DNA of 38,622 bases from an uncultured Bacteroidota bacterium (GCA_903875055.1 CAIQUX010000312.1:1-38622), one strand, 5' to 3'; counted from the stretch's first letter, positions 6,312 through 23,337 are shown. Notes: generated by a model from the sequence alone, not told the origin. A program made the numbers and translations.

Positions 6312-7475
6312 ATGAAATCATTGGAACAACTATTAGCCGAATGCGAAGAAGCCGCATTCGACCTTCAATTCAAAAGGGCGAAGCGATGGAAGGCCGAAGA
6401 TGAGACACGAGTAATAGTAGGTTATTTGCCAACCTATATTCCTCGAGAGATTATTCATGCAGCAAATGGTATCGCCGTAGGTATCATGGGTACAGGTGAC
6501 AGGAAACAAATCATAAAAGGTGATGCATATTACCAGTCCTATATATGCCATCTTCCAAGAGGAATCATTGAGATGGCCCTTGACACGAATCTCGAAGGCT
6601 TCGATGGATTCCTTTTCCCTGCCATTTGTGATTGTGTCCGTAATCTATCAGGAATGTTTAAACTGTCCAATAAAGGAAAGTTTCAGCGTTATTTCGATTA
6701 CCCACAGAATTTCTCTGCACATATCGGAGGTAAGTTTTATATCCAGGAACTTGAAAAGGTTCTGGAGGATATTTTTAATGTAAACGGGGTAAGGGTCACC
6801 ACTGAATCGTTGAACCATTCGATTGGCTTATATAATACCAACCGTCAGCTGATTGAAGCCATATATGATATCCGTGAAGCAAGTCCATGGAAACTTTCGG
6901 CCGTGGAGACCTATTATCTATTACGGGCAGGTTTGGGAATGCCGGTTGAGGAGCATAACGAAATCCTCGAACAGGTCGTTGGATATCTTCAGAATGAACG
7001 GGGTGAACCGATGGATAATACACGGGTAGTTGTTTCTGGCTCGTTTTGCGAACAACCGCCAATCGGATTGATCAAGTCGATTGAACTTGCCGGATGTTAT
7101 ATAGTGGATGATGACTTCATGCTGGGTTCGAGATTCATTATCGGTGATATCGATCATCATACGGACAATCCTTTGTCTGCCCTTTCAGAAGCCTATATCC
7201 ATCAGAGCACATTCTCTTCCGCATACTACGATGTCGGTAATCCTAAAGGAAAGAGGCTGGTGGCACTTGCTCAACGGCGTATGGCTGACGGGATCATTTT
7301 CTGTGCAGCAAGTTTTTGCGATCCGGCCTTACTCGACCGGCCCGAATTGCAGAAGGAAGCGGATGCCGCAGGACTCCCACATATCAATTTTCAGTTTCAC
7401 GAAAACACCGGTCAGTTCAAAATTATCAAGGAGCAGGCGGGAACTTTTTCAGACTCCATTAAACTCTGGGCATAA
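6312..7475 (+). CDS. bcrC: Benzoyl-CoA reductase subunit C (class I, ATP-dependent; BcrC/BadD-like)
   Basis: 387 aa 2-hydroxyacyl-CoA dehydratase-family protein, conserved Cys contexts (YICHLPRG, PAICDCVRN, AASFCDPALLDRP); gene order bcrCBAD. Confidence 0.9.
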   Translation: MKSLEQLLAECEEAAFDLQFKRAKRWKAEDETRVIVGYLPTYIPREIIHAANGIAVGIMGTGDRKQIIKGDAYYQSYICHLPRGIIEMALDTNLEGFDGFLFPAICDCVRNLSGMFKLSNKGKFQRYFDYPQNFSAHIGGKFYIQELEKVLEDIFNVNGVRVTTESLNHSIGLYNTNRQLIEAIYDIREASPWKLSAVETYYLLRAGLGMPVEEHNEILEQVVGYLQNERGEPMDNTRVVVSGSFCEQPPIGLIKSIELAGCYIVDDDFMLGSRFIIGDIDHHTDNPLSALSEAYIHQSTFSSAYYDVGNPKGKRLVALAQRRMADGIIFCAASFCDPALLDRPELQKEADAAGLPHINFQFHENTGQFKIIKEQAGTFSDSIKLWA

Positions 7476-7533
7476 CAGCATTCACAAGTGAATGATGCAA
7501 GAAATTAACTAATACAATCATAAAACAGTAAAG

Positions 7534-8835
7534 ATGTCAAGTCATAAAGAAGCGATCAAAGAAAACAGCATGATCATCCAGAAGGAGATGCTCGCAAAAC
7601 AATTCAAGGACCTTAGCATGGCAAAGGAACTGGGTAAGAAAGTGGTTTATACTTTCGTGCCCGGCAACCTGACCGAGCTGATTCTTTCCTTTGATATGCT
7701 CCCGGTCTATCCTGAAATCAACGCACTGCAATCAGGGATGAGAAAGAAATCCGCAGAATATATACGTGATGCTGAAAAGATAGGTTTTTCAGAGGATGTC
7801 TGCACCTATGTGAAGTGCGATATAGGAATGATGCTGAACGGGAATATCGGCCCGACAGGTGAAAAAATTCCTCCGCCTGACTTGCTTTTGCTGAGCTACA
7901 CCGGATGTTTCACTTTCCTGAAGTGGTTTGAGAATCTCGAAAGGCTCTACCCGGGAGTTCCGGTGGCCATGCTGCATACTCCTTATCAGGAGGATGGTGT
8001 AATGACGGAAGACCAGATTAATTACATGGTGAAACAAATGAAGGAAGAAGTGATTCCAAAGATGGAAATGGTCTCAGGGCAGAAGTATGATCATGCCAGA
8101 CTTTCAAAAATGATGGAGAATTCCGCCAAGGCCGAGGACTTGCTGGTGAAAATTCTTGAAAGTGCCAAACTGGTCCCTTCACCGATCGATGCATATTTCG
8201 CAGGTGTTTATTATATCGGCCCTATCTTCACTGCATTCAGGGGAACACAAGAAGCAGTGGATTATTATACTGAACTTTGGAATGAAGTACAGCAACGTAT
8301 CGAACTCGGTCTTGGCCCCGTGACCCCGGAAGGTGAGATCAAGGAAGAAAAATTCCGACTCGTAGTTGAAGGCCCTCCGAACTGGACAAACTTCCGCGAA
8401 TTCTGGAAGATCTTTTATGATATGGGGGCGGTTATTGTCGCTTCATCCTATACCAAGGTAGGCGGAGTCTATGATCTCGGTTTCCGTCATGATCCGAAAG
8501 AACCGCTGGAAAGTTTATCGAAATATTGCATGGGTGTCTATACGAACATGAACCTGCCGCAACGTGTTGAGATGCTTGAAAACTATGTGAAGGAGTACAA
8601 GGCAGACGGATTTCTCATCAATTCTATCAAAAGCTGCAATTCATTCTCGGCTGGTCAGCTGATGATTATGCGCGAGATCGAACAGCGCGCCAGCGTGCCG
8701 GTCGGGTTTATCGAATCTGATCTTGTCGACCCACGGTATTTCTCCTATTCGAATATCAAGAATAGGTTAGAATCCTATTTCCAGATGCTGGAGCAACGTA
8801 AGATCATTTTAAAACAGGAAGCAACCACAATTTAA
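7534..8835 (+). CDS. bcrB: Benzoyl-CoA reductase subunit B (BcrB/BadE-like)
   Basis: 433 aa; Cys contexts DVCTYVKCD, SYTGCFTFLKWF, SIKSCNSFSAGQ; gene order. Confidence 0.9.
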   Translation: MSSHKEAIKENSMIIQKEMLAKQFKDLSMAKELGKKVVYTFVPGNLTELILSFDMLPVYPEINALQSGMRKKSAEYIRDAEKIGFSEDVCTYVKCDIGMMLNGNIGPTGEKIPPPDLLLLSYTGCFTFLKWFENLERLYPGVPVAMLHTPYQEDGVMTEDQINYMVKQMKEEVIPKMEMVSGQKYDHARLSKMMENSAKAEDLLVKILESAKLVPSPIDAYFAGVYYIGPIFTAFRGTQEAVDYYTELWNEVQQRIELGLGPVTPEGEIKEEKFRLVVEGPPNWTNFREFWKIFYDMGAVIVASSYTKVGGVYDLGFRHDPKEPLESLSKYCMGVYTNMNLPQRVEMLENYVKEYKADGFLINSIKSCNSFSAGQLMIMREIEQRASVPVGFIESDLVDPRYFSYSNIKNRLESYFQMLEQRKIILKQEATTI

Positions 8836-8847
8836 AACACAACATGT

Positions 8848-10269
8848 ATGTATAAATATTATCTCGGAGTCGATCTGGGTTCTACCACATCCAAAGCGGT
8901 TATCATCAACGAACAAGATGAGATCATAGGCCGCGGTATCACGAATACACGCTCAAATTATTCAGTTGCTGCGGATATCGCCAGAGACGAAGCCATCTAT
9001 AATGCAAGGTTCTCCATCCTTCAGAAAAATATCCAGAAGGAAATCGAATTCAATCCTTCCTATCAGAAATATATTGCCGATCTGGCAAGTGTGTTCCAAT
9101 ATGAACAGTTCAAGGTAAGGCTTGACCGTTTGGGTGAGGAATTGGTAAAGACTTGTCATACTATGTTTGCTGATGAAGAAAAGCGGAAAATAATGTTAGG
9201 TCATCTTATCGCCATTCGTAAGGCCTTTAAGCCGGTGATCAAACATGATTATCTGTATAACAATCTCGGCAGCAAGAACCAGTTTTTTAGGGATATCGTT
9301 TCCGAAAAATACAATGAAGAGGTAAACAAACTCGAGATGTCTCTGTTCGAGCCGCTGATGACCATATGGGATAAGAGCATCAGCCCGGCTGAGAATGAAA
9401 GGGTGCAGTTCAATTTCAAAGAACTTATCCATAAGGCAATGGATGAACTGAAACATAAATACAAAAATCTTCCGGATACATCAACCGAAAACACAAGTAT
9501 TAATTTCGATGCCGAGATGAACTTGCTGAAAGGCAACTTTGACCAGGTGTCCGATACACTCAGGAAACATATAGATGAGATTGCAGATCTCGAATTCAAT
9601 ATCGCCAATATGACGGGTACCGGATATGGACGCGCCTTGCTGCCGTTCCCTGAGGATTGCATTCGTTCCGAAATCTTATGTCATGCGTTCGGTGCTCATG
9701 CCGTTTTCCCTGATACGAGGACAGTACTCGATATCGGTGGACAGGATACCAAAGCCATACAGGTAGACAAACACGGATTGGTGACAAGTTTCCAGATGAA
9801 CGATCGTTGTGCGGCTGGTTGCGGCCGTTACCTCGGATACATCGCCGATGAAATGAGCATTTCCATCAATGAACTTGGTCCTATGGCCATGCAGGCTGAA
9901 AAGGAAGTGACCATCTGTTCGACTTGCACCGTATTCGCAGGAGCGGAGTTGCGTGAATTGACCAATCTGGGAGAGAAACGGGAAGATATCCTTGGCGGTC
10001 TGCACAGGGCAATCATCATGCGTGCCATGTCGCTCATCGCACGATCAGGCGGTGTATTCAACGAATTTACCTTCACAGGCGGTGTGGCACGAAATCCTGC
10101 TGTGATTAAATACCTCACTCAACTGGTCAGGGAAAATTATGGGGAGAGTATAAAAATCAATATCCATACGGATTCTATTTTCATGGGGGCGCTTGGAGGT
10201 GCCATGTTTGCAAGAAGAAATTTAAACCTTGACCTGCCATCTGTCAAGAAAGTAAAAGAGATGGCCTAA
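8848..10269 (+). CDS. bcrA: Benzoyl-CoA reductase ATPase subunit A (BcrA/BadF-like)
   Basis: GVDLGSTTSKAV, DIGGQDTKAI, NDRCAAGCGRYLG, CSTCTVFAGAE, FTGGVARN ASKHA-ATPase motifs; long insertion as in BcrA. Confidence 0.9.
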   Translation: MYKYYLGVDLGSTTSKAVIINEQDEIIGRGITNTRSNYSVAADIARDEAIYNARFSILQKNIQKEIEFNPSYQKYIADLASVFQYEQFKVRLDRLGEELVKTCHTMFADEEKRKIMLGHLIAIRKAFKPVIKHDYLYNNLGSKNQFFRDIVSEKYNEEVNKLEMSLFEPLMTIWDKSISPAENERVQFNFKELIHKAMDELKHKYKNLPDTSTENTSINFDAEMNLLKGNFDQVSDTLRKHIDEIADLEFNIANMTGTGYGRALLPFPEDCIRSEILCHAFGAHAVFPDTRTVLDIGGQDTKAIQVDKHGLVTSFQMNDRCAAGCGRYLGYIADEMSISINELGPMAMQAEKEVTICSTCTVFAGAELRELTNLGEKREDILGGLHRAIIMRAMSLIARSGGVFNEFTFTGGVARNPAVIKYLTQLVRENYGESIKINIHTDSIFMGALGGAMFARRNLNLDLPSVKKVKEMA

Positions 10270-10286
10270 CAATTAATACTAATACA

Positions 10287-11126
10287 ATGAAGACTTCTTT
10301 ATTTACAATGGGTATTGACGTCGGGAGCAATTTTATCAAATTGGTGCTGATGGATTACTCCGACCATCCAGAAATCGTTGAGAAACATACCGAAAAGATC
10401 AGGAAGAGAAACCCGACTACGGTGGCTGATGAGATGATACAGACTATGCTTCAGAAACATCATCTGAAGTACGAGGATATTGCCTACCTGGCATCTACCG
10501 GTGAAGGCGACATGGTAAAACGCAAACGCGGACATTTCTACGGGATGACCACACATGCGAAAGGTGCTCATTTTCTTTTCCCTGATGCCAGGACGGTGGT
10601 CGATATGGGCGCTCTGTTTGTAAGGGCTATCAAGATTTCACCTGATGCACGTGTGGAAGATTATAAGATGACAGGACAGTGCGCATCGGGTTCAGGGCAA
10701 TTTGTGGAGAACATATCCCGTTATCTTGGATTGTCCATTGAAGAAGTCGGTGATGTGTCATTGAGCGCGACTGCACCTGAAATTTCTTCTGGTATATGTG
10801 CAGTGCTAGCAGAAACCGATGTCATCAACATGGTCTCCCGGGGAATCAAGACTCCGGACATCATCAAAGGAATCCACCTGTCAATTGCGAACCGGATCAT
10901 CAAATTGCTGAGTTCACTGAAAGGGGAATCTCCGATTATTCTTACTGGTGGTATGGCTCTGAACAAAGGAATGTTACAAGCTATCAGTGAACAACTGGCA
11001 GAGACCGGTAAACAATTTGAAATAAAGACCCATCCCGATGCAGGATATGCAGGAGCCATCGGCGCAGCATTGTGGGGAGGATTCAGGCATATCAAGCTAA
11101 AAGAAAAACAAGCGGTCGCAGTATAA
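10287..11126 (+). CDS. bcrD: Benzoyl-CoA reductase ATPase subunit D (BcrD/BadG-like)
   Basis: GIDVGSNFIKLV, TGQCASGSGQFVENISRYLG, GICAVLAETDVINMVSRG; 279 aa. Confidence 0.9.
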   Translation: MKTSLFTMGIDVGSNFIKLVLMDYSDHPEIVEKHTEKIRKRNPTTVADEMIQTMLQKHHLKYEDIAYLASTGEGDMVKRKRGHFYGMTTHAKGAHFLFPDARTVVDMGALFVRAIKISPDARVEDYKMTGQCASGSGQFVENISRYLGLSIEEVGDVSLSATAPEISSGICAVLAETDVINMVSRGIKTPDIIKGIHLSIANRIIKLLSSLKGESPIILTGGMALNKGMLQAISEQLAETGKQFEIKTHPDAGYAGAIGAALWGGFRHIKLKEKQAVAV

Positions 11127-11136
11127 AACTCATGTT

Positions 11137-13281
11137 ATGACAGAAGTGCCGGTCAATACCGAAAACAAAAACGTGGGGAATGAAAAACGGATTCATGAAC
11201 TGGATTCACTTTTCAAACCGAAAGCCATTGCCATCATCGGCGCATCATCCAAGGAATTATCCATTGGAAATGTCATCCTTAAGAATCTGGTTCATTACGG
11301 GTATACCGGACAGATTTATCCCATCAACCCGAAAGAACCTGAAATTCGAGGGATTAAGGCTTACCCGACTATTTTTGATGTCCCTGGCGACATTGATTTG
11401 GCGCATATCATTATTCCGAGCAGATTCGTTCCACAGATGATTGAAGATTGCGGTAAGAAAGGAATCAAATCAGTCATTATCAACTCGGCCGGTTTTAGCG
11501 AGATGGGTGAAGAAGGGATGGCATTACAAAAAGAGTTTCTGGCAAATGCAAAAAAATATGGCGTCCGGGTCTTTGGCCCGAATTGTCAGGGAATCATTAA
11601 CGCTGACCCACAATACAATGCGTATTGTGATTTTACATTCACATTTCCGAAGCCCGGCAGCATTTCGATTGTAGCCTTAAGCGGCGGAGTGGGAGCCTTC
11701 ATCATGCAAAGCTTGTTTGACCTCGATATTGGAATGCGGCTTTATGCCTCGAACGGAAACGCTTGTGATGTTTCTATTTCCGAAGTGGTTGATTACTATG
11801 GTAATGATGATGGCACAAGGGCGATTATCTTGTATACGGAAGGATTTCATAATCCGAAGGAATTTATGGATGTGGCCAAACGCGTTTCAAAGAAAAAACC
11901 GATTCTTGCGATGAAAGCAGGTCGAACCGAAGAAGGCGCAAAGGCAGCTGCTTCACATACTGGTTCACTCGCAGGTGTTGACATCGCCACGGAGTTGATA
12001 TTCGAAAAGACCGGTATCCTCTCCTTTCAAAACGAAGAAGAGATGTGTCAGGCAGCAATGGCATTTTCGACACAACCGCTTCCTAAAGGCAATCGTGTAG
12101 GCATCATCACGAATACAGGAGGCCCTGCAGTGATAGCCACCGATGAATTGGTGAGCGCGGGTTTGCAACTTCCAGCTTTATCGGAACGGGCTAAGGAAAT
12201 CCTTAAGGAGACGATGCTTCCTGAGGCATCAATCGGGAATCCTGTAGACGTAGTTGCAACAGGCGGTGGAACACATTTCCGAAGTGCGCTGGATGTAATG
12301 ATGGATGAGGATGACATCGATGCCGTATATATCAATTTTGTTACTGCTCCGTTTACTGATACAAACGAGGTGGCAAGGAATATTGTGGAAGTAAACAAGC
12401 AGAAGCGAAAACCGATGGTCTGCAACTTCATGACCAATATGAGTTTGGAACGTTTTCAGGAAACGGCAAAAATCCTGCGGGATGGGGGAGTGCCTTGTTA
12501 TAGCTTTCCAACCACTGCCGCGAAAGCGCTGGGTGCATTGTATAAGTATCATAAGATGCAATCGAGAAATATAGGTAAAGAGAAAGATTTCAATGATGTA
12601 AATAAAAAAGAAGCCGGCAATATTCTGCAACTGGCACGAAACGAGAACAGGGAGTTTCTCACCTCTGCCCAAACATACCAACTACTTGCCCATTATAAGA
12701 TTCCTTTTGCAGACTGGCGCATTGCATCGGATACTGAAGACGCTGTAAAAGCCGCAGAAGTGATTGGATTCCCTGTGGTAATCAAAGCCGATTCCTCTTC
12801 CCTGATTCATAAAAGTGATCAGGGCGGTGTTGCCATTAACCTTAATAATGCGGATGAGGTCCGTTCAACTGTTGTCAGAATGAAGGCATTATTCGACGCG
12901 GCTGATCTCAAATTTTTTATCCAGAAATATTTGCCAGGTGGACGGGAGCTGATAGCAGGTGTCAGTGCAAAGAAAGACCTCGGGCATCTGATCATGTTCG
13001 GTATCGGAGGTATCTATGTTGAAGTGTTGAAGGATGTGGTCTTCAAGATTGCGCCTGTCACAGAGGTAGAAGCTGATGAGATGCTTGCATCGCTGAAGGC
13101 TTCAAAATTACTGGATGGCGTTCGCGGTGAAAAGGGTATCGACAAACAACTTGTGACCGACATCATTCTCCGTGTTTCGCAACTTGTCACGGATTTTCCT
13201 GAAATACAAGAGATGGATATGAACCCGATTATGGCATTCGGTGACAACGCGTTTGTAGTTGATGCAAGAATAAAAATCTGA
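11137..13281 (+). CDS. ADP-forming (NDP-forming) acyl-CoA synthetase/acetate-CoA ligase family
   Basis: CoA-binding domain (KAIAIIGASSKELSIGN), HTGSLAG phospho-His motif, C-terminal ATP-grasp domain; 714 aa. Confidence 0.9.
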   Translation: MTEVPVNTENKNVGNEKRIHELDSLFKPKAIAIIGASSKELSIGNVILKNLVHYGYTGQIYPINPKEPEIRGIKAYPTIFDVPGDIDLAHIIIPSRFVPQMIEDCGKKGIKSVIINSAGFSEMGEEGMALQKEFLANAKKYGVRVFGPNCQGIINADPQYNAYCDFTFTFPKPGSISIVALSGGVGAFIMQSLFDLDIGMRLYASNGNACDVSISEVVDYYGNDDGTRAIILYTEGFHNPKEFMDVAKRVSKKKPILAMKAGRTEEGAKAAASHTGSLAGVDIATELIFEKTGILSFQNEEEMCQAAMAFSTQPLPKGNRVGIITNTGGPAVIATDELVSAGLQLPALSERAKEILKETMLPEASIGNPVDVVATGGGTHFRSALDVMMDEDDIDAVYINFVTAPFTDTNEVARNIVEVNKQKRKPMVCNFMTNMSLERFQETAKILRDGGVPCYSFPTTAAKALGALYKYHKMQSRNIGKEKDFNDVNKKEAGNILQLARNENREFLTSAQTYQLLAHYKIPFADWRIASDTEDAVKAAEVIGFPVVIKADSSSLIHKSDQGGVAINLNNADEVRSTVVRMKALFDAADLKFFIQKYLPGGRELIAGVSAKKDLGHLIMFGIGGIYVEVLKDVVFKIAPVTEVEADEMLASLKASKLLDGVRGEKGIDKQLVTDIILRVSQLVTDFPEIQEMDMNPIMAFGDNAFVVDARIKI

Positions 13282-13383: not shown

Positions 13384-14601
13384 ATGTATAAGATAGAAAC
13401 GACTAAAATCATGAAGGAAATAATGTCAAATTATTTTCTTGGCATGAAGGACGCACGGAAGAAATACGCTTGGTGTACCAGCGTTGGTCCTGCCGAGTTA
13501 TTGCGTTCCTTCGGTTTTGAAGTTCATTTCCCTGAGAATCATGGTGCCTTATTAGGGGCTACCCGCTCTTCCGGCGATTTGATTCCTGAGAGTGCCAGCC
13601 TCGGGTACAATAATGATATCTGTTCCTATCTAACTTCTGATATCGGATCTTATCTGAAAAAACAGACCCCGCTGCAGGAGCATTACGGATTGGAAGGTCC
13701 TCCCAAACCGGATATCATAGTCTACAATACGAATCAGTGTCGCGAAGTGCAGGATTGGTTCACTTACTTTGCTAGGGAATTCAATTGCCCTATCGTTGGG
13801 ATCACCCCGCCCCGTCATGTGGATGAAGTAACCGATGTGCATATCAACGATGTCAGTAACCAGTTTAAGGCTATGATTCCTGCCTGTGAAGCGGCAAGTG
13901 GTCAGAAATTTGATATCGACCGATTCCGGGAGACACTCCAACTTAGCAAGGAAGCTACAGACCTTTGGAAAAAGGTATTATGGACAGCCACTGCTTCCCC
14001 TTCTCCAATCAGTTTTTTCGATGCTACCATTCACATGGGACCTATTGTGGTACTCCGAGGAACCCAGGTCGCCAAGGATTATTATACAACCCTTTTGAAG
14101 GAACTTGAATCGAATGTCAGAAATAAGGTCGGGTTTCTTGAGAAAGAACGATGCCGCATTTATTGGGATGGGATGCCCATTTGGGGTAAGCTGAGGCCTA
14201 TGTCAGAATTATTCCTCCAGAATCATGCGGCCGTCGTGGCTTCCACTTATTGTAACAGTTGGGTATTTGATGCCTTTGATGTAGAGCACCCATTTGAATC
14301 TTCAGCGAAAGCCTACACCGAAATTTTCATCAACAGGAGCGAGGAGGCAAAGGAAAAGATTTTGGCCAGATTGGTTGAAGACTTCAGGATAGACGGCATG
14401 ATTTTTCATGATGCAAAGACCTGTGCCAATAATTCCAACTCGCGATTTGGTATGCCGCAACGTATCACTGAGAAACTTGGCATTCCGACACTGGTGGTAG
14501 AAGGAGACCTCTGCGATTTGCGGTTCTATTCAGAAGGACAAACCACTACGAAGATTGAAAGTTTCATTGAGCAGATTGAAAATTCGAAAGTGTATAGTTG
14601 A
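13384..14601 (+). CDS. BcrB/HgdB-like 2-hydroxyacyl-CoA dehydratase-family subunit (second, orphan copy)
   Basis: 405 aa; conserved Cys contexts DICSYLTSD, NTNQCREVQDWF, HDAKTCANNSNS parallel to those of BcrB. Confidence 0.82.
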   Translation: MYKIETTKIMKEIMSNYFLGMKDARKKYAWCTSVGPAELLRSFGFEVHFPENHGALLGATRSSGDLIPESASLGYNNDICSYLTSDIGSYLKKQTPLQEHYGLEGPPKPDIIVYNTNQCREVQDWFTYFAREFNCPIVGITPPRHVDEVTDVHINDVSNQFKAMIPACEAASGQKFDIDRFRETLQLSKEATDLWKKVLWTATASPSPISFFDATIHMGPIVVLRGTQVAKDYYTTLLKELESNVRNKVGFLEKERCRIYWDGMPIWGKLRPMSELFLQNHAAVVASTYCNSWVFDAFDVEHPFESSAKAYTEIFINRSEEAKEKILARLVEDFRIDGMIFHDAKTCANNSNSRFGMPQRITEKLGIPTLVVEGDLCDLRFYSEGQTTTKIESFIEQIENSKVYS

Positions 14602-14626: not shown

Positions 14627-15097
14627 ATGAATGAAATACAGACCATCAAGGACAAGATATATAAACTTTCAACAGGGGAGAAAGTCAGTCCGCTGGAGTT
14701 GGAGAAACGGATCGGCGAGAAGTGCCATTATGTGCAGTATGTTGTTGTCGGCAAAGACGACAAGGAGCATCCAGTGGCTATGATATTTCCGAATCAAAAA
14801 TTGTTTCCGAATCCTGATTATCAGTTATCTCCTGAGGAAGGTTGTTTTTGCCCTCGGAGTCTGGATGAGTTGGGAAGATGTCTCAGCGGTTGCCTGAAAA
14901 GAGTGAACCAGGGGATTGAACATCAAGTCTCAAAACTTGCATCCGCGACCATCATCAATACTGGTTTAACGGCAGAGAATACTCCCCCTTTGTCGTCCGA
15001 TGAGATTTTCAATAAATATAAGGCCATTCTACAAGATAAATACGGGAAAAATGTTCCTGCAGAAGAAGAAATCTACGTAATAAAAAATCTCCAATGA
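14627..15097 (+). CDS. Small protein resembling an isolated C-terminal domain of long-chain acyl-CoA synthetase, with extra cysteines
   Basis: YKLSTGEKVSPLELEKRIGEKCHYVQYVVVGKDDKEHPVAMIFPN resembles the ACSL post-linker segment; C-terminal GLTAENTPPLSSDEIFNKYKAIL; no AMP-binding N-domain. Confidence 0.6.
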   Translation: MNEIQTIKDKIYKLSTGEKVSPLELEKRIGEKCHYVQYVVVGKDDKEHPVAMIFPNQKLFPNPDYQLSPEEGCFCPRSLDELGRCLSGCLKRVNQGIEHQVSKLASATIINTGLTAENTPPLSSDEIFNKYKAILQDKYGKNVPAEEEIYVIKNLQ

Positions 15098-16956
15098 ATA
15101 AAAATATTGAACTCTCCGGCATTAAATTCGGCGTTGTCGGCTTAGGCCCTGTCGGGATGATATTAGCCGTAAAACTCAAAGAAGCAGGATGTGATGTTGC
15201 CATATGCGATAGGAACGAATTCAAACTGAAGAAAATCAGGGAGGAGGGGATTATATTGGAAAATGTGATCGAGTCGACTACCCAATTTGATAAGGTTTTT
15301 AACTCCCCTAAAGATATGCGGAATCTCGATCTGGATTATCTGGTCTTCTCACTAAAGACCTATCAGACACTGAGTGCCGCCAAAGAAGCTGAAATTCTCA
15401 ATTCAGAGAAAATTACCTTGGTCTCAGCACAGAACGGTATTGATTCGGAAAAATTGGTTTCTTCTGTTTTCGGTGAGTCTAAAACACTTCGCATGGTCAT
15501 TAACTATGCAGGAAATCTCCGAGCACCTAATGTGGTTCGGGTTTCATTTGTCACCCCACCCAATTATATCGGCTCGATGGATGATAACCGGACTGCTCAA
15601 GCGGACATGTTAGCTTCTATTCTGAATAGTGTCGGTTTTACGACGCAAAAACTGGATTCTTTTGATCTGGTGAAGGGGAGTTGGGAAAAAACCATCCTGA
15701 ATTCCTCGGTTAGCGCTTTATGCGGAGTGGGACGTCTGACCATGGCTGAAGCAATGGCTGATGCAGACACATTGGAACTTGTCGAACAGATCATCAATGA
15801 AGGAATTGAGGTGGCGGGAAAGGAGAAGATTACATTTCCGGATGACTTCGTAAGGAAATGTATGAAGTACCTTCGTAAAGGGGGAGACCATTTTCCTTCC
15901 CTGGCCGTAGATCTCATCAATAACAGGCAGACAGAGGTTGATTACTTCAATGGAAAGATCGTCGAGTACGGAAAGAAGCATTATGTAAAGACCTCTCTGA
16001 ACCTGGCATTCACAAATATGGTAAAGGCGATGACCAATAAAAATGTCCTTGCCAGAATACCAGGTGTCGATGGTGAATTGAACCGCCTCATCATTACCAA
16101 GGGATTGCTTGAAAAGAATAAACCACCTGTTTTTTACAAGGAACAGGATTATTTCCTTGGAATCGATTTGGGGTCGGCATTCACAAAATTCACCATCATA
16201 GATGCCAAAGGCAATACCGTGTTCAGGAATACCTTGCAGACGATGAATAAAGATCGTCACGCCATGCGTAATATCCTTCAGGCGATACATGCCACCTTCA
16301 ACATCGTACACAGTTGTGCAACAGGATACGGTAGAAAGCATTTTACAGAAACGGACATAGTGAAGACTGAAATCAATTGCGCCGCAGCCGGTGTGTCTGA
16401 ATTATTCAGCGGCGAAAAGAATATCGTTGACATCGGAGGTGAGGATATCAAGATCATTCATACCGATCAAGAAAATCATGTCGCTCATTTCCACATGAAT
16501 GATAAATGCGCCGCAGGAACAGGAGCGTTTCTGGAAGAGATTTCAGAGCGGGCTGAAATAAACATTTCTGATATGAGCAGTCTCGCTTCGAATTCAGAAT
16601 TTGAAAAGGAATTGAATAGCTATTGTACGGTATTCGCAAAGACAGAAATTATGAACTGGGTGTTTGACGGGATGCCCCGCCATGATATCGCCCGGGGAAT
16701 CTATTGCTCTATCGCCAACAAAGTGGCTAAGATGCGACTGTATCCCAATATCCCAACCTTCATGATCGGAGGTGTGATTGCCTATCACCCTTACTTAAAC
16801 AAGGTGCTGAGCGATAAATTAAATAAGGAAATCAGGACAATCGAGCAGCCTCAACATATTGTATCATATGGCGCTGCATTAATTGCACGGCAGACCTGGC
16901 TTTCGAATATCGGCAAACAAATTATTCAGACTGAAACCCTAACAAACTCTTTATGA
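15094..16956 (+). CDS. Fusion protein: N-terminal ketopantoate-reductase (ApbA/PanE)-like dehydrogenase plus C-terminal BcrA/BadF/HgdC-type ATPase activator
   Basis: N-term VVGLGPVG Rossmann, SAQNGIDSE, WEKTILNSS, SLAVDLINNRQTEVDYFNG; C-term from about residue 353 GIDLGSAFTKF, DIGGEDIKII, NDKCAAGTGAFLE, NSYCTVFAKTEI, FMIGGVIAYHP; one continuous 620 aa ORF. Confidence 0.88.
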   Translation: MNKNIELSGIKFGVVGLGPVGMILAVKLKEAGCDVAICDRNEFKLKKIREEGIILENVIESTTQFDKVFNSPKDMRNLDLDYLVFSLKTYQTLSAAKEAEILNSEKITLVSAQNGIDSEKLVSSVFGESKTLRMVINYAGNLRAPNVVRVSFVTPPNYIGSMDDNRTAQADMLASILNSVGFTTQKLDSFDLVKGSWEKTILNSSVSALCGVGRLTMAEAMADADTLELVEQIINEGIEVAGKEKITFPDDFVRKCMKYLRKGGDHFPSLAVDLINNRQTEVDYFNGKIVEYGKKHYVKTSLNLAFTNMVKAMTNKNVLARIPGVDGELNRLIITKGLLEKNKPPVFYKEQDYFLGIDLGSAFTKFTIIDAKGNTVFRNTLQTMNKDRHAMRNILQAIHATFNIVHSCATGYGRKHFTETDIVKTEINCAAAGVSELFSGEKNIVDIGGEDIKIIHTDQENHVAHFHMNDKCAAGTGAFLEEISERAEINISDMSSLASNSEFEKELNSYCTVFAKTEIMNWVFDGMPRHDIARGIYCSIANKVAKMRLYPNIPTFMIGGVIAYHPYLNKVLSDKLNKEIRTIEQPQHIVSYGAALIARQTWLSNIGKQIIQTETLTNSL

Positions 16957-18215
16957 AATCATATCATTCAATAGAAAAAGGAATCGCCATCATCTATGAT
17001 GATATTTATCTTGTGAACGGTATGCGAACCCCGTTTGGAAAATATTGCGGAACGCTGGCAAATGTTTCCCCGACAGATCTGGGTATCATTGCGAGCCGAG
17101 CAGCGATGGAAAAATGTAATGTGCTTCCCGGCGAAATTGACCAAGCCATCATCGCAAATATCGGACAAGCTTCGGGTGATGCCTATTTTATTCCACGGCA
17201 TATTGCTTTATTTGCCGGATTGCCAATGTCAGTTCCTTCCTTGATGGTGCAACGGATTTGTGCTTCCGGATTTGAAACCATCATTACGGCTTCCGAACAG
17301 ATTACGCTTGGAAAGGCAGGGACTGTTCTTTGTTGCGGAACAGAAAATATGTCACTCTCACCTACCGTCAGCTTTGGCAACCGCATGGGCTATCAGCTTG
17401 GCAGGCCGGTGTTCAGGGATATGCTTTGGGATGCGCTGGATGATACCGCAGCTGGTTATCCGATGGGATATACTGCCGAAAATGTCGCGATGAAACATCA
17501 GATTACCCGTCAGCAATGCGATGAATTTGCAATGACTTCTTTTCAACGTTCTGTCAATGCGCGTGATAATAATTTGCTTAAAGATGAAATCACACCGGTG
17601 AATCCGATCATATTTGAAATCGAAGGGTTGAAACCAAGGAAGGTCCGCATACCTGGAGGAATAAAGAATTTTGTTTCAGATGAGCAAGTTCGCGAAACGA
17701 CCCTTGAGGCGTTATCAAAGTTAGCACCAGTCTTTTCTGATGTGGGCGTTCTTACTGCAGGGAATTGCAGCGGAATCGTCGATGGTGCCGCTGCCGTTGT
17801 GGTTGCCCATAAATCGTCAATTGAGGCAAAAGGATTGAAACCAATTGCAAGAGTGGTTGCTTCAGCCAGTTGCGGTATCGACCCGAAACTGATGGGCCTC
17901 GGCCCGGTTCCCGCGATCCGTCTTCTTCTTGAGATGACCGGATTGACGATGGAAGATATCGGTTTGATTGAAATTAACGAAGCCTTCTCAGCGCAGGTAA
18001 TCGGTTGCGAAATTGAACTCGGACTTGATCGAGAAAAACTCAATGTGAATGGTGGGGCCATTGCAATTGGTCACCCGTTGGCAGCAACAGGATTGAGGTT
18101 ATCGCTCACATTGGCGAGGGAAATGATTTCAAGAAATGTGAAATACGGAATCGGTTCAGCTTGTATAGGTGGCGGACAAGGCACGGCCGTCTTATTTGAA
18201 AATATAAATTTATAG
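16953..18215 (+). CDS. Thiolase (acetyl-CoA C-acyltransferase)
   Basis: RICASGFETI, NGGAIAIGHPLAATGLR, GSACIGGGQG thiolase signatures; ATGA overlap with the previous gene. Confidence 0.93.
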   Translation: MKSYHSIEKGIAIIYDDIYLVNGMRTPFGKYCGTLANVSPTDLGIIASRAAMEKCNVLPGEIDQAIIANIGQASGDAYFIPRHIALFAGLPMSVPSLMVQRICASGFETIITASEQITLGKAGTVLCCGTENMSLSPTVSFGNRMGYQLGRPVFRDMLWDALDDTAAGYPMGYTAENVAMKHQITRQQCDEFAMTSFQRSVNARDNNLLKDEITPVNPIIFEIEGLKPRKVRIPGGIKNFVSDEQVRETTLEALSKLAPVFSDVGVLTAGNCSGIVDGAAAVVVAHKSSIEAKGLKPIARVVASASCGIDPKLMGLGPVPAIRLLLEMTGLTMEDIGLIEINEAFSAQVIGCEIELGLDREKLNVNGGAIAIGHPLAATGLRLSLTLAREMISRNVKYGIGSACIGGGQGTAVLFENINL

Positions 18216-18217
18216 TA

Positions 18218-19327
18218 ATGTCAGATCAAATAGAAAAAACAGCATCCTTACCCGTTCAGGGGAAAGTAGAGGAGAAGATGTATCAATGGCAGATGGTTGA
18301 GCCTGATAAAGAATTTCAATTATCAGAGACCGCTCTTCCGGAATTAAAGGATGGAGAGGCTCTGATAAAGATTTCAGGTTGCGGTGTATGCCATACCGAT
18401 ATCAGTTTCTGGCATTACGGTGTGCAGACAAAACATTTATTACCCCTCACACTCGGACATGAAATAAGTGGTGTCGTAGTGAGAGGTGCGGATGAATGGT
18501 TAGGGAAGAACGTGATCATACCGGCTGTCCTGCCATGCGGCGAATGCGAATTGTGTGTGAATGGCAGGAGTAATATCTGCAGGAACCAGTTGATGCCAGG
18601 AAATGACTTTCATGGTGGATTTGCCTCCCATATCAGTGTGCCGGCAAGATTCCTTTGTCCAGTGCCGGACAAAGTATTAGAACAATATTCACTTGAGCAA
18701 TTAGCTGTCATCGCTGATGCGATTTCCACTCCTTATCAGGTGATGAAGAAATCCGAACTGGTCTCTGGGGATTTCGCTATCGTCATAGGTGTTGGGGGAG
18801 TTGGAATTTACGGTGCACAGATTGCAAAGATCTTCGGAGCTAAAGTATTGGCATTGGATATTGATGATGAAAAACTCGAAATAGCCAAACAGAACGGGGT
18901 GGATGTCACATTGAACACAAAAGGGATGGATGCCAAGACTGTGAAAGAAAAAGTAAAGGAAATTGCAAAGGAGCTGAAAGCACCGAAATTTGGATGGAAG
19001 ATCTTTGAGATTTCCGGCAGTAAAGCAGGACAAGAGCTGGCCTTCAATCTGATCACATTTGCCTCTACGCTTTCTATCGTCGGATTCACAATGGATAAAG
19101 TGGAAGTTCGATTAAGCAACCTGATGGCCTTCGATGCGAAACTCATTGGTACCTGGGGTTGTAAACCTGAATTGTATCCAGAAGTCGTAGATCTTGTTGC
19201 AGATGGCAAATTGAAGATTGGTCAGTTTGTACAGACTTTTCCAATGTCAAAAATCAATGAGGTGTTTCGAAACACACTTGAGCATAAATATACTAAGCGC
19301 TCGGTTCTGGTCCCTGATTTTTATTGA
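18218..19327 (+). CDS. had: 6-hydroxycyclohex-1-ene-1-carbonyl-CoA dehydrogenase-like Zn-alcohol dehydrogenase
   Basis: GCGVCHTDISFWHYGVQTKHLLPLTLGHEISG, CGECELCVNGRSNICRNQLMPGNDFHGGFA; context with oah/dch. Confidence 0.88.
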   Translation: MSDQIEKTASLPVQGKVEEKMYQWQMVEPDKEFQLSETALPELKDGEALIKISGCGVCHTDISFWHYGVQTKHLLPLTLGHEISGVVVRGADEWLGKNVIIPAVLPCGECELCVNGRSNICRNQLMPGNDFHGGFASHISVPARFLCPVPDKVLEQYSLEQLAVIADAISTPYQVMKKSELVSGDFAIVIGVGGVGIYGAQIAKIFGAKVLALDIDDEKLEIAKQNGVDVTLNTKGMDAKTVKEKVKEIAKELKAPKFGWKIFEISGSKAGQELAFNLITFASTLSIVGFTMDKVEVRLSNLMAFDAKLIGTWGCKPELYPEVVDLVADGKLKIGQFVQTFPMSKINEVFRNTLEHKYTKRSVLVPDFY

Positions 19328-19451
19328 CAGTAATTGGATATGAAAAATCAGCGATGAAATCAACTATCCAGATGAAATGAACCATTTAAAAAAGAACGCA
19401 AACACATAAAATTCAGTTGAAGACATTTATCATATTTTAAAATAATACAAC

Positions 19452-20552
19452 ATGACAGAGCTTAAAAACCATAATCTTATCCGCACTGATTTTAGTGAAA
19501 TTTTATTCGAAAAAAGACCATGCCTCGACAAGGATGGGACCCCGGTGGATAAATTATTTACCGCGTGGATATTCCTAAACAATCCGAAGCAATTCAATTC
19601 CTATACTACAGCTGCGATTAAGGAAATTATCCTCGCTTTCCGCCAGGCTTCCAATGACCGAAGTGTCGTAGCCGTCGTCCTGACCGGTGTTGGAGACAAG
19701 GCGTTCTGCACCGGAGGAAATACCAAGGAATATGCAGAATACTATGCCGGTAATCCGCAAGAGTATTCACAATATATGCGCCTCTTTAACGATATGGTCT
19801 CTACCATCCTGCTGTGCGAAAAGCCGGTTATCTGCCGTGTCAACGGCATGCGAATTGGTGGCGGGCAGGAAATCGGAATGGCATGTGATTTCAGTGTCGC
19901 CAGTGACATGGCAAGATTCGGACAAGCTGGTCCAAAACACGGCAGTGCTGCTATCGGTGGTGCTACTGATTTTCTTCCCTTGTATGTGGGTGTGGAAAGG
20001 GCCATGATGTCACTTACCTTATGTGAACCTTGGACGGCACATCAGGCCTATTATTATGGTGTAATCACCGATATCGCCCCCGTATTGAAAGTTGACGGAA
20101 ATTTCATTCCGAATCCGATGGTGAACCTGAATAAGATTACAGATGAATTCGGAAGAATATGCTTCGGTACGATGAAAACCGGTGAAGCCTTGTCTCAGGC
20201 GAAGGAAGTTATGTCAAAGGCCGAAACCGATTTAAGTATGTTGGATCAAACGGTCAATATGCTCATCGCTAAAATCCTTCACACCTTCCCGAATTGCATG
20301 TCTAAAACCATCAGTGAAGTCCGTAAATTCAAATTGGAACATTGGGATAAAAACAAGGAAGGCAGTCGTGAATGGCTGGCATTGAACATGATGACGGAAG
20401 CCAAGGCAGGATTCCGGGCCTTCAATGACGGGCCGAAAGATAACCGTGAAATTGATTTCATTCTGCTAAGGCAATTGCTCGCTGAAGGACATGAGTGGAA
20501 TGAAGAATTACACAACAAGATTTCTCCACAATATCAAACGGCAACAGTTTAA
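19452..20552 (+). CDS. oah: 6-oxocyclohex-1-ene-1-carbonyl-CoA hydrolase (Oah/BamA)
   Basis: Highly characteristic FNDMVSTILLCEKPVICRVNGMRIGGGQEIGMACDFSVASDMARFGQAGPKHGSAAIGGATDFLPL. Confidence 0.93.
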   Translation: MTELKNHNLIRTDFSEILFEKRPCLDKDGTPVDKLFTAWIFLNNPKQFNSYTTAAIKEIILAFRQASNDRSVVAVVLTGVGDKAFCTGGNTKEYAEYYAGNPQEYSQYMRLFNDMVSTILLCEKPVICRVNGMRIGGGQEIGMACDFSVASDMARFGQAGPKHGSAAIGGATDFLPLYVGVERAMMSLTLCEPWTAHQAYYYGVITDIAPVLKVDGNFIPNPMVNLNKITDEFGRICFGTMKTGEALSQAKEVMSKAETDLSMLDQTVNMLIAKILHTFPNCMSKTISEVRKFKLEHWDKNKEGSREWLALNMMTEAKAGFRAFNDGPKDNREIDFILLRQLLAEGHEWNEELHNKISPQYQTATV

Positions 20553-20555
20553 ATT

Positions 20556-21329
20556 ATGCAAAAGATAAAGCTCTCGTTTAGCCATGAAAATACTGTCGCA
20601 CGTGTCATCTTAGATGACGGGAAAGGGAATGTACTCGATCACATCATGATGGAGGAATTGCAGGACATCCTGACTTCATTCAAGGAAATGAAGGGATTGA
20701 AATTGATCGTGTTTGAAGGAGCCGGGAAACATTTCTCGTTCGGTGCCAATGTGGATGAACATAAAAAGGAAGCGGCGGCTGTTATGTTAAGGTCCTTTCA
20801 TCAGTTGTTTTACTCGTTGAAGGACTTGTCTGTACTAACTCTGGCAAAGATTTCAGGTCAATGTCTGGGTGGCGGAATGGAACTTGCTATCATGTGCAAT
20901 TTCTTGTTTGCCGATAAGTCAGCTAAAATGGGACAGCCCGAAATCGTGTTAGGTGTCTTTCCTCCTCCTGCATCCATCATCCTGCCCGAGAAAATAGGAT
21001 TGGCAAGAGCTGAAGAATTGTTGCTAACAGGAAAAATTATTTCAGCCGAGGAAGCTAAAACGGCCGGTTTACTGAATGAATTATTTGAGGATAAGGATAC
21101 GCTTGAACAGGGTGTCAATTCGTTTATCGAAAACTACATCATACCCCGGAGTTCGAGTTCGCTGCGTTTTGGCGTACGTGCCTCACGCACCAAATTCAAC
21201 CATGTACTTACAAACTTCCTCCAATCACTTGAGATGATGTATGTGAATGAGTTGATGAAGACCCATGATGCAAATGAAGGAATCAATGCATTTATTGAGA
21301 AGCGGAAACCGAATTGGGAAAATTATTAA
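20556..21329 (+). CDS. dch: Cyclohexa-1,5-diene-1-carbonyl-CoA hydratase
   Basis: Crotonase fold; DDGKGNVLDHIMMEELQ, GAGKHFSFGANVDEHKK, GQCLGGGMELA; 257 aa; context. Confidence 0.88.
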   Translation: MQKIKLSFSHENTVARVILDDGKGNVLDHIMMEELQDILTSFKEMKGLKLIVFEGAGKHFSFGANVDEHKKEAAAVMLRSFHQLFYSLKDLSVLTLAKISGQCLGGGMELAIMCNFLFADKSAKMGQPEIVLGVFPPPASIILPEKIGLARAEELLLTGKIISAEEAKTAGLLNELFEDKDTLEQGVNSFIENYIIPRSSSSLRFGVRASRTKFNHVLTNFLQSLEMMYVNELMKTHDANEGINAFIEKRKPNWENY

Positions 21330-21339
21330 AACTATTCAT

Positions 21340-23337
21340 ATGAAGACGATTAAACTTGTTGGTGTAGTAGGTGCCGGTACAATGGGCGCGGCGCTGGCTC
21401 AAAAATTTGCACAAGAGAATTTCAATGTGATACTTGCTGACCGTGAAATGTCCTTCGTTGAAAGAGGGCTGAATAACATCAGTAAGATGCTCGAAGAGGG
21501 CATTGAAAAAAAAGTATTTTCACCTGAGCAGGTGAAGGGTTATTTATCGGCTATCAAGGGAACGGCACGACTTGAAGATCTCAAGGATTGTGATCTGGTG
21601 GTTGAAGCGATCTATGAAAACTTCGATGCGAAAACTGACTTGTTCAGGAAGCTTAGCGAGGTATTGAGGCCGGAGGCCATTATTGCCACAAATACGTCTT
21701 CATTTTCAATCTCAGAATTGGCAAGGTCTGTAAAATTTCCTGAGCGATTTATCGGCTTACATTATTTCTATCATGCTGCCAAAAACCGTTTGGTTGAAAT
21801 TATTCCGTGTGAAATGACCTCGGAGGAAGTAGTTGAAACTGCCAGGATATTTTCAGTTCAGTCGGGTAAGGATGCAATTTCTTGCCGTGACGCATATGGC
21901 TTTGTCGTCAACAGATTTTTTGTTCCATGGCTGAACGAATCAACTAAGTTGCTTGAGGAAAAGATTGCCAATATCCCAACAATAGAAGATGTGTGTTTGA
22001 AAACCTTTGGAATTTCTATGGGGCCTTTTGCACTGATGAATGCAACCGGAGTCCCGGTCGCATATCATTCAGAGAAGACACTTGAGGTATTCGGTCCATT
22101 ATATAAAGTCTCAGAAAAATTGAAGGATCAGGCGGAAAGAAATGAACATTGGGATTTGGATGGAGAGATTTCTGACGATGAGGGGGCAAGAAAAAAAATC
22201 AGGGACAGGATGCTGGGTGTCATTCTTCTAATCTGTTCGCAATTGCTCGATGAAAAAGTTTGCAGAGCAGTAGATATCAATCGTGGCGCACGGATAGGTC
22301 TTCAATGGAAGAAGGGCCCGATTGAATTGATGAAAGAACTGGGACATGGCGAGGTCAAATCGCTGATTGCTGAAGCGGCTAGGTTATATCAGATGGAATT
22401 GCCCGTTTCAGTGGGTGAAGAACACTGGAAAATGAGTTATGTGGATCTGCATAAGGAGAATCATATTGCTGTGATTACCATGACCCGACCTGAAGACCTG
22501 AACGCATTGAATGAAGAGGTGATGATGCAATTGCACGAAAAATTTTCTGATGCGGATGCGGACACTGCCATAGACACCATCTTCCTTACAGGGACCGGAA
22601 AAGCCTTTGTGGCAGGCGCCGACATAAAGTTTTTTGTTACGCATATCAGGACGAATACGATCAATGAGATTGAAGACTTTGCAGCCTTCGGTCAAAAAGT
22701 ATGTTCAGGGATTGAGCATTCCAAAAAGAAAGTGGTTGCCATGATCAATGGGCTTGCGTTGGGTGGCGGACTGGAACTTGCCTTATGTGCAGATGTCCTG
22801 TTGGCAACACCCAAAGCGGTGATGGCATTTCCTGAAACCGGCATTGGCATTTACCCTGGACTAGGTGGCACTCAGCGCACTGCTACTAAAATCGGTAAGT
22901 CATTGGCCAGATATCTGATTCATACAGGCAAGATGCTGACAGCGGCTGAGGCTTATGACATGGGACTGATTGATGCAATCATTCCCGTTGATGAAGTTCC
23001 TCAACTGTTCTCAGGGAAGAAAGCGGTTCCGGTATTAAGGGAGTTTCATTTAAGTGAAAAATTAAAGAACATCAATGACTTCTTTGAATTGAATACGATC
23101 GATAAATTACTTTCCCATACATATATTGCCAAAGGAATAAATGATGAGGATGCTGAAAAATTGTTCAAATCAATCAAACGGAAGGCTCCCATCGCCATTC
23201 AGATTGCCGACAAACTTATTCGTGAAGCTAAAGGTTGCGAGTCAGAGTTAGATCATATGCGGGAAATATTTTCAACCAAAGACACCTTGCTGGGGTTAAC
23301 CTCCATCGGAAAGAAGGTTGAATACAGCGGTGAGTGA
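21340..23337 (+). CDS. 3-hydroxyacyl-CoA dehydrogenase/enoyl-CoA hydratase fusion (HAD domain first)
   Basis: N-term VGVVGAGTMGAALAQKFA, TNTSSFSISELA, GLHYFYHA; C-term GTGKAFVAGADIKFF, NGLALGGGLELALCADV; start moved from 21265 to ATG 21340. Confidence 0.9.
   Translation: MKTIKLVGVVGAGTMGAALAQKFAQENFNVILADREMSFVERGLNNISKMLEEGIEKKVFSPEQVKGYLSAIKGTARLEDLKDCDLVVEAIYENFDAKTDLFRKLSEVLRPEAIIATNTSSFSISELARSVKFPERFIGLHYFYHAAKNRLVEIIPCEMTSEEVVETARIFSVQSGKDAISCRDAYGFVVNRFFVPWLNESTKLLEEKIANIPTIEDVCLKTFGISMGPFALMNATGVPVAYHSEKTLEVFGPLYKVSEKLKDQAERNEHWDLDGEISDDEGARKKIRDRMLGVILLICSQLLDEKVCRAVDINRGARIGLQWKKGPIELMKELGHGEVKSLIAEAARLYQMELPVSVGEEHWKMSYVDLHKENHIAVITMTRPEDLNALNEEVMMQLHEKFSDADADTAIDTIFLTGTGKAFVAGADIKFFVTHIRTNTINEIEDFAAFGQKVCSGIEHSKKKVVAMINGLALGGGLELALCADVLLATPKAVMAFPETGIGIYPGLGGTQRTATKIGKSLARYLIHTGKMLTAAEAYDMGLIDAIIPVDEVPQLFSGKKAVPVLREFHLSEKLKNINDFFELNTIDKLLSHTYIAKGINDEDAEKLFKSIKRKAPIAIQIADKLIREAKGCESELDHMREIFSTKDTLLGLTSIGKKVEYSGE

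Follow-up and report, generated by a model that had tools for sequence, protein, structure and literature searches.

Which reaction would call for a dehydrogenase of the ketopantoate-reductase fold and an ATP-driven activator of radical enzymes to be made as one protein? This question is raised by a 620-aa protein that is encoded in a 38,622-nt stretch of DNA from an uncultured Bacteroidota bacterium (GCA_903875055.1, CAIQUX010000312.1:1-38622; the window), in which an initial annotation had noticed one reading frame that joins the two folds, here called FusN (the dehydrogenase) and FusC (the activase). In this study, we examined the two domains, their homologues and their gene neighbourhood, and weighed the functions that the protein may have.

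Genomic context of the fusion gene

The window contains an anaerobic aromatic-acid cluster in which the class I benzoyl-CoA set bcrCBAD is present together with had, oah and dch (Table 1). The initial annotation had missed this benzoyl-CoA degradation cluster. The fusion gene overlaps by 4 bases with the upstream gene and likewise with the downstream thiolase gene, and therefore lies in a tight operon. The xdhC/mocA-like helper genes of the Mo enzyme are on the strand opposite the bcr genes, and its HcrC-like and HcrA-like parts form a single 930-aa protein (1214-4006, minus strand), which corresponds to two genes in Fidelibacterota (loci L085-L088). PEPCK, pyrB, pyrR and tpiA were read by eye at the far end of the window, which looks like ordinary chromosome. 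By reading the sequences, three 2-oxoacid:ferredoxin oxidoreductase-like subunit genes were recognised within each of five related clusters (L015, L020, L023, L030 and L091), where they are the likely source of reduced ferredoxin for the benzoyl-CoA reductase (BCR). No recurrent aminotransferase or CoA-transferase was found among the unlabelled neighbours of the clusters.

Table 1. Features of the window around the fusion gene
Feature	Position	Strand	Remarks
4-hydroxybenzoyl-CoA-reductase-like Mo enzyme: HcrB-like and fused HcrC/HcrA-like	282..4006	-	best matches below equivalog cut-offs
bcrC, bcrB, bcrA, bcrD: class I benzoyl-CoA reductase and its activase	6312..11126	+	bcrC, bcrB above equivalog cut-offs; bcrA, bcrD best matches below
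ADP-forming acyl-CoA synthetase (ACD)	11137..13281	+	NCBIfam
HgdB2, HGD-D protein, HadB-like, proposed activase target	13384..14601	+	profile and structure comparison
Small Cys-rich protein, remnant of AMP-forming CoA ligase C-terminal domain	14627..15097	+	between HgdB2 and fusion
Fusion gene	15094..16956	+	uninterrupted ORF, ATG to stop, 620 aa; Pfam and NCBIfam
FusN, PanE/ApbA-fold dehydrogenase domain	15094..16053	+	residues 1 to ~320; predicted NAD(H)-dependent 2-hydroxyacid dehydrogenase
Linker between FusN and FusC	16054..16149	+	residues ~320-352
FusC, ASKHA [4Fe-4S] activase domain	16150..16887	+	residues ~353-598; cluster cysteines C472 and C511
Thiolase	16953..18215	+	start overlaps fusion stop
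had, oah, dch-like, FadJ-like genes (benzoyl-CoA pathway)	18218..23337	+	had, oah above equivalog cut-offs; dch best match below

The small protein between HgdB2 and the fusion has 156 aa, of which C33, C73, C75, C85 and C89 are nearly invariant in 22 homologues. The end that was expected to hold the ligase catalytic lysine is decayed while the Cys-rich stretch is kept, and in L034, L035, L041, L054 and L055 full-length ligases with the same Cys-rich stretch occupy its place. A PDB search with this protein as the query gave no match; it may be a retained metal or Fe-S domain that serves the HgdB2/FusN/FusC proteins.

Two complete domains in a single protein

Profile searches with curated cut-offs assigned residues 11-315 to a complete ketopantoate-reductase fold and residues 354-597 to a complete acyl-CoA dehydratase activase. 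In Pfam, ApbA matched residues 13-161 (74.3 bits, cut-off 22.2), ApbA_C residues 193-313 (95.4 bits, cut-off 22.7) and BcrAD_BadFG residues 355-598 (127.7 bits, cut-off 31.5), while in NCBIfam TIGR00745 (apbA_panE) scored 165.3 against a cut-off of 141.35 and TIGR00241 (CoA_E_activ) 168.7 against 125.4. The view that two unrelated, complete domains share one frame is thus borne out. The first 340 residues or so had been assigned to the ApbA/PanE-like part; this part is indeed PanE-like, but the homology stops near residues 315-320 and is followed by a linker up to about residue 352, which is open in every fused homologue that was recovered. With a pLDDT of 68, the AF2 model of the fused protein is too weak for judging how the domains pack.

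Homologues that are always separate and unlinked, or a frameshift, had been named beforehand as evidence against the fusion; neither is the case, as there are 35 fused rows and two independent fusions. An assembly chimera or a missed frameshift, which might be suspected because the window comes from a 329-contig draft genome, was rejected and has a negligible probability, since the 35 fused rows come from separate assemblies and include one from a single-contig genome (G203).

Distribution and origin of the fusion

The scan of genome contigs relied on exact peptide matches, by which distant relatives will be missed, and it yielded 45 loci, 28 of them fused; most of the genomes are MAGs. HgdB2 adjoins every fused copy, either directly or with the small protein in between, and in 27 of these 28 loci the contig also carries one or more of the bcr, had and oah genes. 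In the exception, L032, the contig starts just before HgdB2 and the genes after the fusion are unrelated, so that HgdB2 and the fusion stand there as a unit of two genes. Genome searches gave more fused copies, including the one in G203 (a single contig of 2.84 Mb), where the fused gene lies in the same cluster (L072). The 35 fused rows of the tree comprise the copies from the contig scan and the genome searches together with the window protein, and nearly all fused copies lie within class I benzoyl-CoA clusters. The fusion was found in none of the plasmid records; an Azoarcus plasmid has the usual layout of two subunits plus activase.

Several split arrangements were also observed. The Bacteroidales loci (L043-L058) have a solitary FusN gene flanked by those for the CoA synthetase and had, with HgdB2 and a more distant activase further downstream, and in the single-contig genome G433 Hcr-like genes separate FusN from FusC. 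The order in Fidelibacterota (Candidatus Neomarinimicrobiota) is mostly HgdB2-FusN-FusC, with the genes adjacent in some genomes; four loci of this phylum (L085-L088) are fused without a linker, and the activase methionine is still visible in LHEKKK-MG(V/Q)Y(F/Y)LGIDLGSS.

In the FusN tree, which was based on 60 rows, 31 fused rows, which come from Bacteroidota and a single MAG labelled Ignavibacteriota, form one clade (support 100/96), and the four Fidelibacterota fusions fall elsewhere. The well-supported branches force three label changes, the simplest account being two gains and one re-split (L093). The FusN-FusC fusion arose twice independently, in Bacteroidota and in Fidelibacterota, and split relatives are known in both. 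The Ignavibacteriota-labelled row (L036) is close to L034, so a recent transfer or misbinning is possible. One Fidelibacterota genome, G644, has two complete clusters: the gene is fused in the first (L085), and FusN and FusC overlap in different frames in the second (L093). Furthermore, a very divergent FusN relative (31%) was observed in G653 beside Hcr-like genes, with no HgdB2 or FusC on that stretch (L090); the BCR genes and a third HGD-D protein of this genome are on another contig.

The dehydrogenase domain

FusN was aligned with the E. coli PanE sequence. The PanE catalytic set K72, N98, K176, N180, S244 and E256 is retained, and the GxGxxG, QNG (N114), WEK (K199), S269 and E281 features that had been pointed out in FusN are present and conserved. 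In place of N184, N194, N241 and R31 of PanE, FusN has S207, M217, H266 and I37; in PanE, the three asparagines bind pantoate and R31 is the NADPH arginine after beta-2 (the residue letters were checked). FusN therefore has ApbA, ApbA_C and the catalytic Lys/Glu/Asn/Ser of PanE proper and has neither its pantoate asparagines nor its NADPH arginine. Among the 60 FusN rows, H266 is found in all 60 and M217 in 58, while position 39, at the end of beta-strand 2, is always acidic (56 rows with D, 4 with E). Among solved structures, those closest to FusN are the D-mandelate dehydrogenases 3wfi, 5x20 and 8wl1 and the putative relative 2ew2; in both sequence and structure FusN is nearest to such KPR-fold D-2-hydroxyacid dehydrogenases and shares their NADH signature, albeit at low identity. 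Because an acidic residue in this place is normally the mark of an NAD(H) enzyme, NAD(H) use is predicted, and to judge from these residues the cofactor looks to be NAD(H) rather than NADPH. The NADPH dependence that was originally suggested is not supported, given the acidic beta-2 end, the replacement of R31 and the NADH-binding D-mandelate dehydrogenases as closest solved relatives.

It is very improbable that FusN is the cell's ketopantoate reductase and was joined to FusC by chance, a candidate that was rejected because of the binding residues and the distribution. Although the host genome has panB and no other clear PanE, and most of the fusion genomes have a single ApbA_C domain, no ApbA_C domain occurs in 68 of the 79 genomes of the host's family, N184, N194 and N241 are replaced by other, conserved residues, and the FusN gene tracks the benzoyl-CoA cluster. 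Since the host itself has panB and so many of its relatives are devoid of ApbA_C, ketopantoate reduction in this family normally proceeds without a PanE-fold enzyme.

The activase domain and its proposed target

Both cluster cysteines of FusC are in place as initially described, C472 in NDKCAAGTG and C511 in NSYCTVFAKTE, and neither varies among the 35 fused and 19 split copies; the ATPase motifs are invariant too. In sequence and structure comparisons, FusC was closest to HadI and HgdC. It has what is expected of a 2-hydroxyacyl-CoA dehydratase activator, i.e., a score above the TIGR00241 cut-off, the two cysteines and the ASKHA motifs, and its gene lies beside a potential target, as HgdB2 is directly upstream or next but one in the fused loci. 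FusC as a third BcrA/BcrD copy was rejected, because it scored below the equivalog cut-offs for BCR activases (TIGR02259 red_A, 89.5 against 578; TIGR02261 red_D, 63.8 against 312.85; TIGR03192 bzdQ, 96.3 against 380.2) and because a FastTree phylogeny of activase domains placed it in its own clade, apart from BcrA and BcrD (support 98).

The neighbouring HgdB/BcrB-like subunit to which the initial annotation had referred exists and is the HGD-D protein HgdB2. By sequence it is closer to HadB (217 bits) than to MbdO (163) or BzdO (116), and its AF2 model (pLDDT 85) gave TM scores of 0.91 to HadB and 0.87 to MbdO. Like a dehydratase alpha subunit, it keeps the cluster cysteines C80, C119 and C347 and the Ser/Glu pair S33/E51, and C31 and C290 are near-invariant additional cysteines. 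The pair in HgdB2 aligns with HadB S37/E55 and with BzdO S44/E65, and the roles of the latter have been described (PMC11971306).

No second HGD-D partner of the HadC type was found: the host genome and 11 of 13 others hold three HGD-D proteins, namely the two BCR subunits and HgdB2. In the other two genomes there are six (G644), because of the two clusters there, and four (G302). A pairing of HgdB2 with BcrC is disfavoured, since HgdB2 retains 53-56% identity to its counterpart in the window where the values for BcrB and BcrC drop to 31-35%, and since HgdB2 is also kept with a bzd-like BCR in G302. Because its relatives need a second catalytic subunit, yet only three HGD-D proteins are available and BcrC is an improbable partner, HgdB2 may, as far as can be read from these sequences, be a homodimer, i.e., a dehydratase-like enzyme with a single HGD-D subunit.

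Co-occurrence was analysed in 396 genomes, all from Bacteroidota, with FusN and FusC called at E <= 1e-60 and HgdB2 at E < 1e-200. The FusN/FusC domains were found in four of them and HgdB2 in exactly those four, all of which have a class I benzoyl-CoA reductase. Two random four-genome sets would match by chance with a probability of about 1e-9 if kinship is ignored; the four genomes span four families. The reductase is of the bcr type in three of them, and the fourth, G302, has a divergent bzd-like BCR (L137). In G302, HgdB2, two copies of FusN and FusC are spread over four different contigs, and therefore the tie between HgdB2 and FusN/FusC is more than operon inheritance. These observations define HgdB2, FusN and FusC as a three-component module tied to class I benzoyl-CoA reductase in Bacteroidota. 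The BCR of L137 is 23% (BcrC), 24% (BcrB) and 41% (BcrA) identical to that of the window, and the adjoining CoA synthetase is 61% identical to ACD.

Proposed function and alternatives

The explanation that we favour, although tentatively and with somewhat less than even confidence, is that the 620-aa protein is a bifunctional member of a dedicated 2-hydroxyacyl-CoA dehydratase-type module in the anaerobic class I benzoyl-CoA pathway. FusN would interconvert a 2-oxoacid and the (R)-2-hydroxyacid with NAD(H), and the ACD or AMP-ligase of the cluster would then turn the hydroxyacid into its CoA ester. A FusC homodimer around one [4Fe-4S] cluster would inject the starting electron, driven by ATP, from ferredoxin into HgdB2, the putative target, which would take off the alpha-hydroxyl of the CoA ester via a ketyl radical; the enoyl-CoA product would be cut down by FadJ and thiolase and enter the benzoyl-CoA pathway. 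As a guess, the substrates could be aromatic 2-oxoacids such as phenylpyruvate or 4-hydroxyphenylpyruvate, which would be converted through cinnamoyl- or coumaroyl-CoA to benzoyl- or 4-hydroxybenzoyl-CoA, with the Mo enzyme handling the 4-hydroxy version. The simplest reading is a route that leads from an aromatic 2-oxoacid to benzoyl-CoA, because the three nearest relatives are parts of a dehydratase pathway and ligase, thiolase and FadJ-like genes flank the module.

Indeed, D-mandelate dehydrogenase, HadI and HadB, the nearest solved relatives, precisely match the three components of a pathway of this kind. The explanation also agrees with the retained PanE catalytic residues beside replaced pantoate contacts, the invariant activase cysteines and ATPase motifs, the HadB cluster cysteines and Ser/Glu pair in HgdB2, the two fusion events and the split HgdB2-FusN-FusC genes of Fidelibacterota, the two-gene unit of L032, and the perfect co-occurrence, which holds even on separate contigs. 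However, HgdB2 has no HadC-type partner whereas the characterised dehydratases are heterodimeric, neither a CoA-transferase nor an aminotransferase recurs in the clusters, FusN is only about 24% identical to D-mandelate dehydrogenases, and the strict tie to BCR would also fit a step on a ring intermediate.

Such a step is the core of the second explanation, which is possible but rather unlikely: in addition to BCR, HgdB2 and FusC would provide the benzoyl-CoA pathway with another ATP-dependent reductase, whose substrate would be a substituted benzoyl-CoA or a dienoyl-CoA. FusN would be an NAD-dependent dehydrogenase that oxidises or reduces a hydroxyl or oxo group on the ring of the alicyclic CoA ester so formed. 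In favour of this are the co-occurrence of the module with BCR and its place among had, oah and dch, the position of FusN immediately before had in Bacteroidales, the closeness of HgdB2 to the BCR subunit MbdO as well, and the ability of KPR-fold enzymes to bind CoA (5ayv). Nevertheless, HgdB2 and FusC are each nearer to HadB and HadI than to the BCR subunits, the nearest solved relatives of FusN use free 2-oxoacids, and a ring dehydrogenase is already provided by had.

Less probable again is that the two domains share only regulation or assembly, so that the fusion equalises their amounts, FusN works on a separate step and their proximity has no catalytic meaning. The domains are not joined by an electron path, and in G433 and G302 the genes are far apart, which makes the fusion unnecessary for function. 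On the other hand, this pair of domains was fused twice independently and each time in the same order, which, together with the perfect co-occurrence, suggests that the dehydrogenase and the activator act on one path.

A reverse, oxidative use of the module is improbable. Here, glutaconyl-CoA from glutaryl-CoA would be hydrated in reverse to 2-hydroxyglutaryl-CoA, which would be freed and oxidised by FusN to 2-oxoglutarate, from which a 2-oxoacid:ferredoxin oxidoreductase would make reduced ferredoxin for BCR. This direction would suit an NAD-dependent FusN, and genes resembling those for the oxidoreductase were read in five clusters and for an acyl-CoA dehydrogenase in seven, but both are absent from most clusters, a dedicated CoA-transferase does not recur, and 2-hydroxyglutaryl-CoA dehydratase is a heterodimer whose partner is absent here.

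The coupling of 2-oxoacid reduction to radical chemistry that was originally envisaged survives in part within our favoured dehydratase-type explanation. The link to ATP-driven radical chemistry on CoA thioesters stands, whereas direct electron transfer from FusN to FusC is unlikely: NADH cannot reduce the activase cluster by itself, and no flavin or Fe-S group links the two domains as a relay. The fusion most likely provides a fixed proximity and ratio of two enzymes on one path, and no electron-transfer route.

The architecture had been thought to be undescribed, and this appears to be so: no description of a dehydrogenase-activase protein was found in the PMC literature, subscription literature being outside its scope. 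Each half is an ordinary member of its family, and what appears to be new is that the two are combined, that this happened repeatedly and that the partner has one subunit. Because the joining took place at least twice, the two enzymes very probably cooperate in a step that is so far undescribed. The most far-reaching version, in which a twice-evolved protein joins NADH-dependent 2-oxoacid reduction to the ATP-driven activation of a homodimeric 2-hydroxyacyl-CoA dehydratase and so lets uncultured Bacteroidota and Fidelibacterota convert aromatic 2-oxoacids anaerobically to benzoyl-CoA by an undescribed route, is unlikely to hold in all of its parts. From the module one would expect a reaction that is still missing from anaerobic aromatic degradation, and a dehydratase-like enzyme built on one HGD-D subunit. 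The automatic labels '2-dehydropantoate 2-reductase' and 'activase' are each misleading for the fusion gene when used alone.

Comparison with known systems

FusN and the D-mandelate dehydrogenases (3wfi, 5x20, 8wl1) are alike in their ketopantoate-reductase fold, catalytic residues and acidic beta-2 end, but at the low identity given above, and those enzymes are unfused and outside benzoyl-CoA clusters. With HadI (4eht) and HgdC (1hux), FusC has in common the fold, the ATPase motifs, the two cluster cysteines and a gene beside that of an HGD-D protein; however, HadI and HgdC, at about 260-270 aa, stand on their own, whereas FusC has an N-terminal dehydrogenase, and it has DIGGED where they have DIGGQD. 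FusC and HgdB2 belong to the same superfamilies as class I BCR and its activase (BcrCBAD, BzdNOPQ, MbdONPQ) and lie in the same gene cluster, although FusC fails the equivalog cut-offs of the BCR activases (BcrA, BcrD, BzdQ) and its clade stands beside BcrA and BcrD. HgdB2 resembles HadB, the alpha subunit of (R)-2-hydroxyisocaproyl-CoA dehydratase HadBC (3o3m), in its three cluster cysteines and Ser/Glu pair; HadBC has a HadC-type beta subunit, whereas the HgdB2 genomes that were checked are without one, and C31 and C290 are extra in HgdB2. The homodimeric double-cubane protein and its activase (DCCP/DCCP-R; 6eno, 7yyl) have one HGD-D protein per activase, as is proposed for HgdB2 and FusC, but the similarity of HgdB2 to DCCP is about 17% (TM 0.78), and HgdB2 has five near-invariant cysteines and not six.
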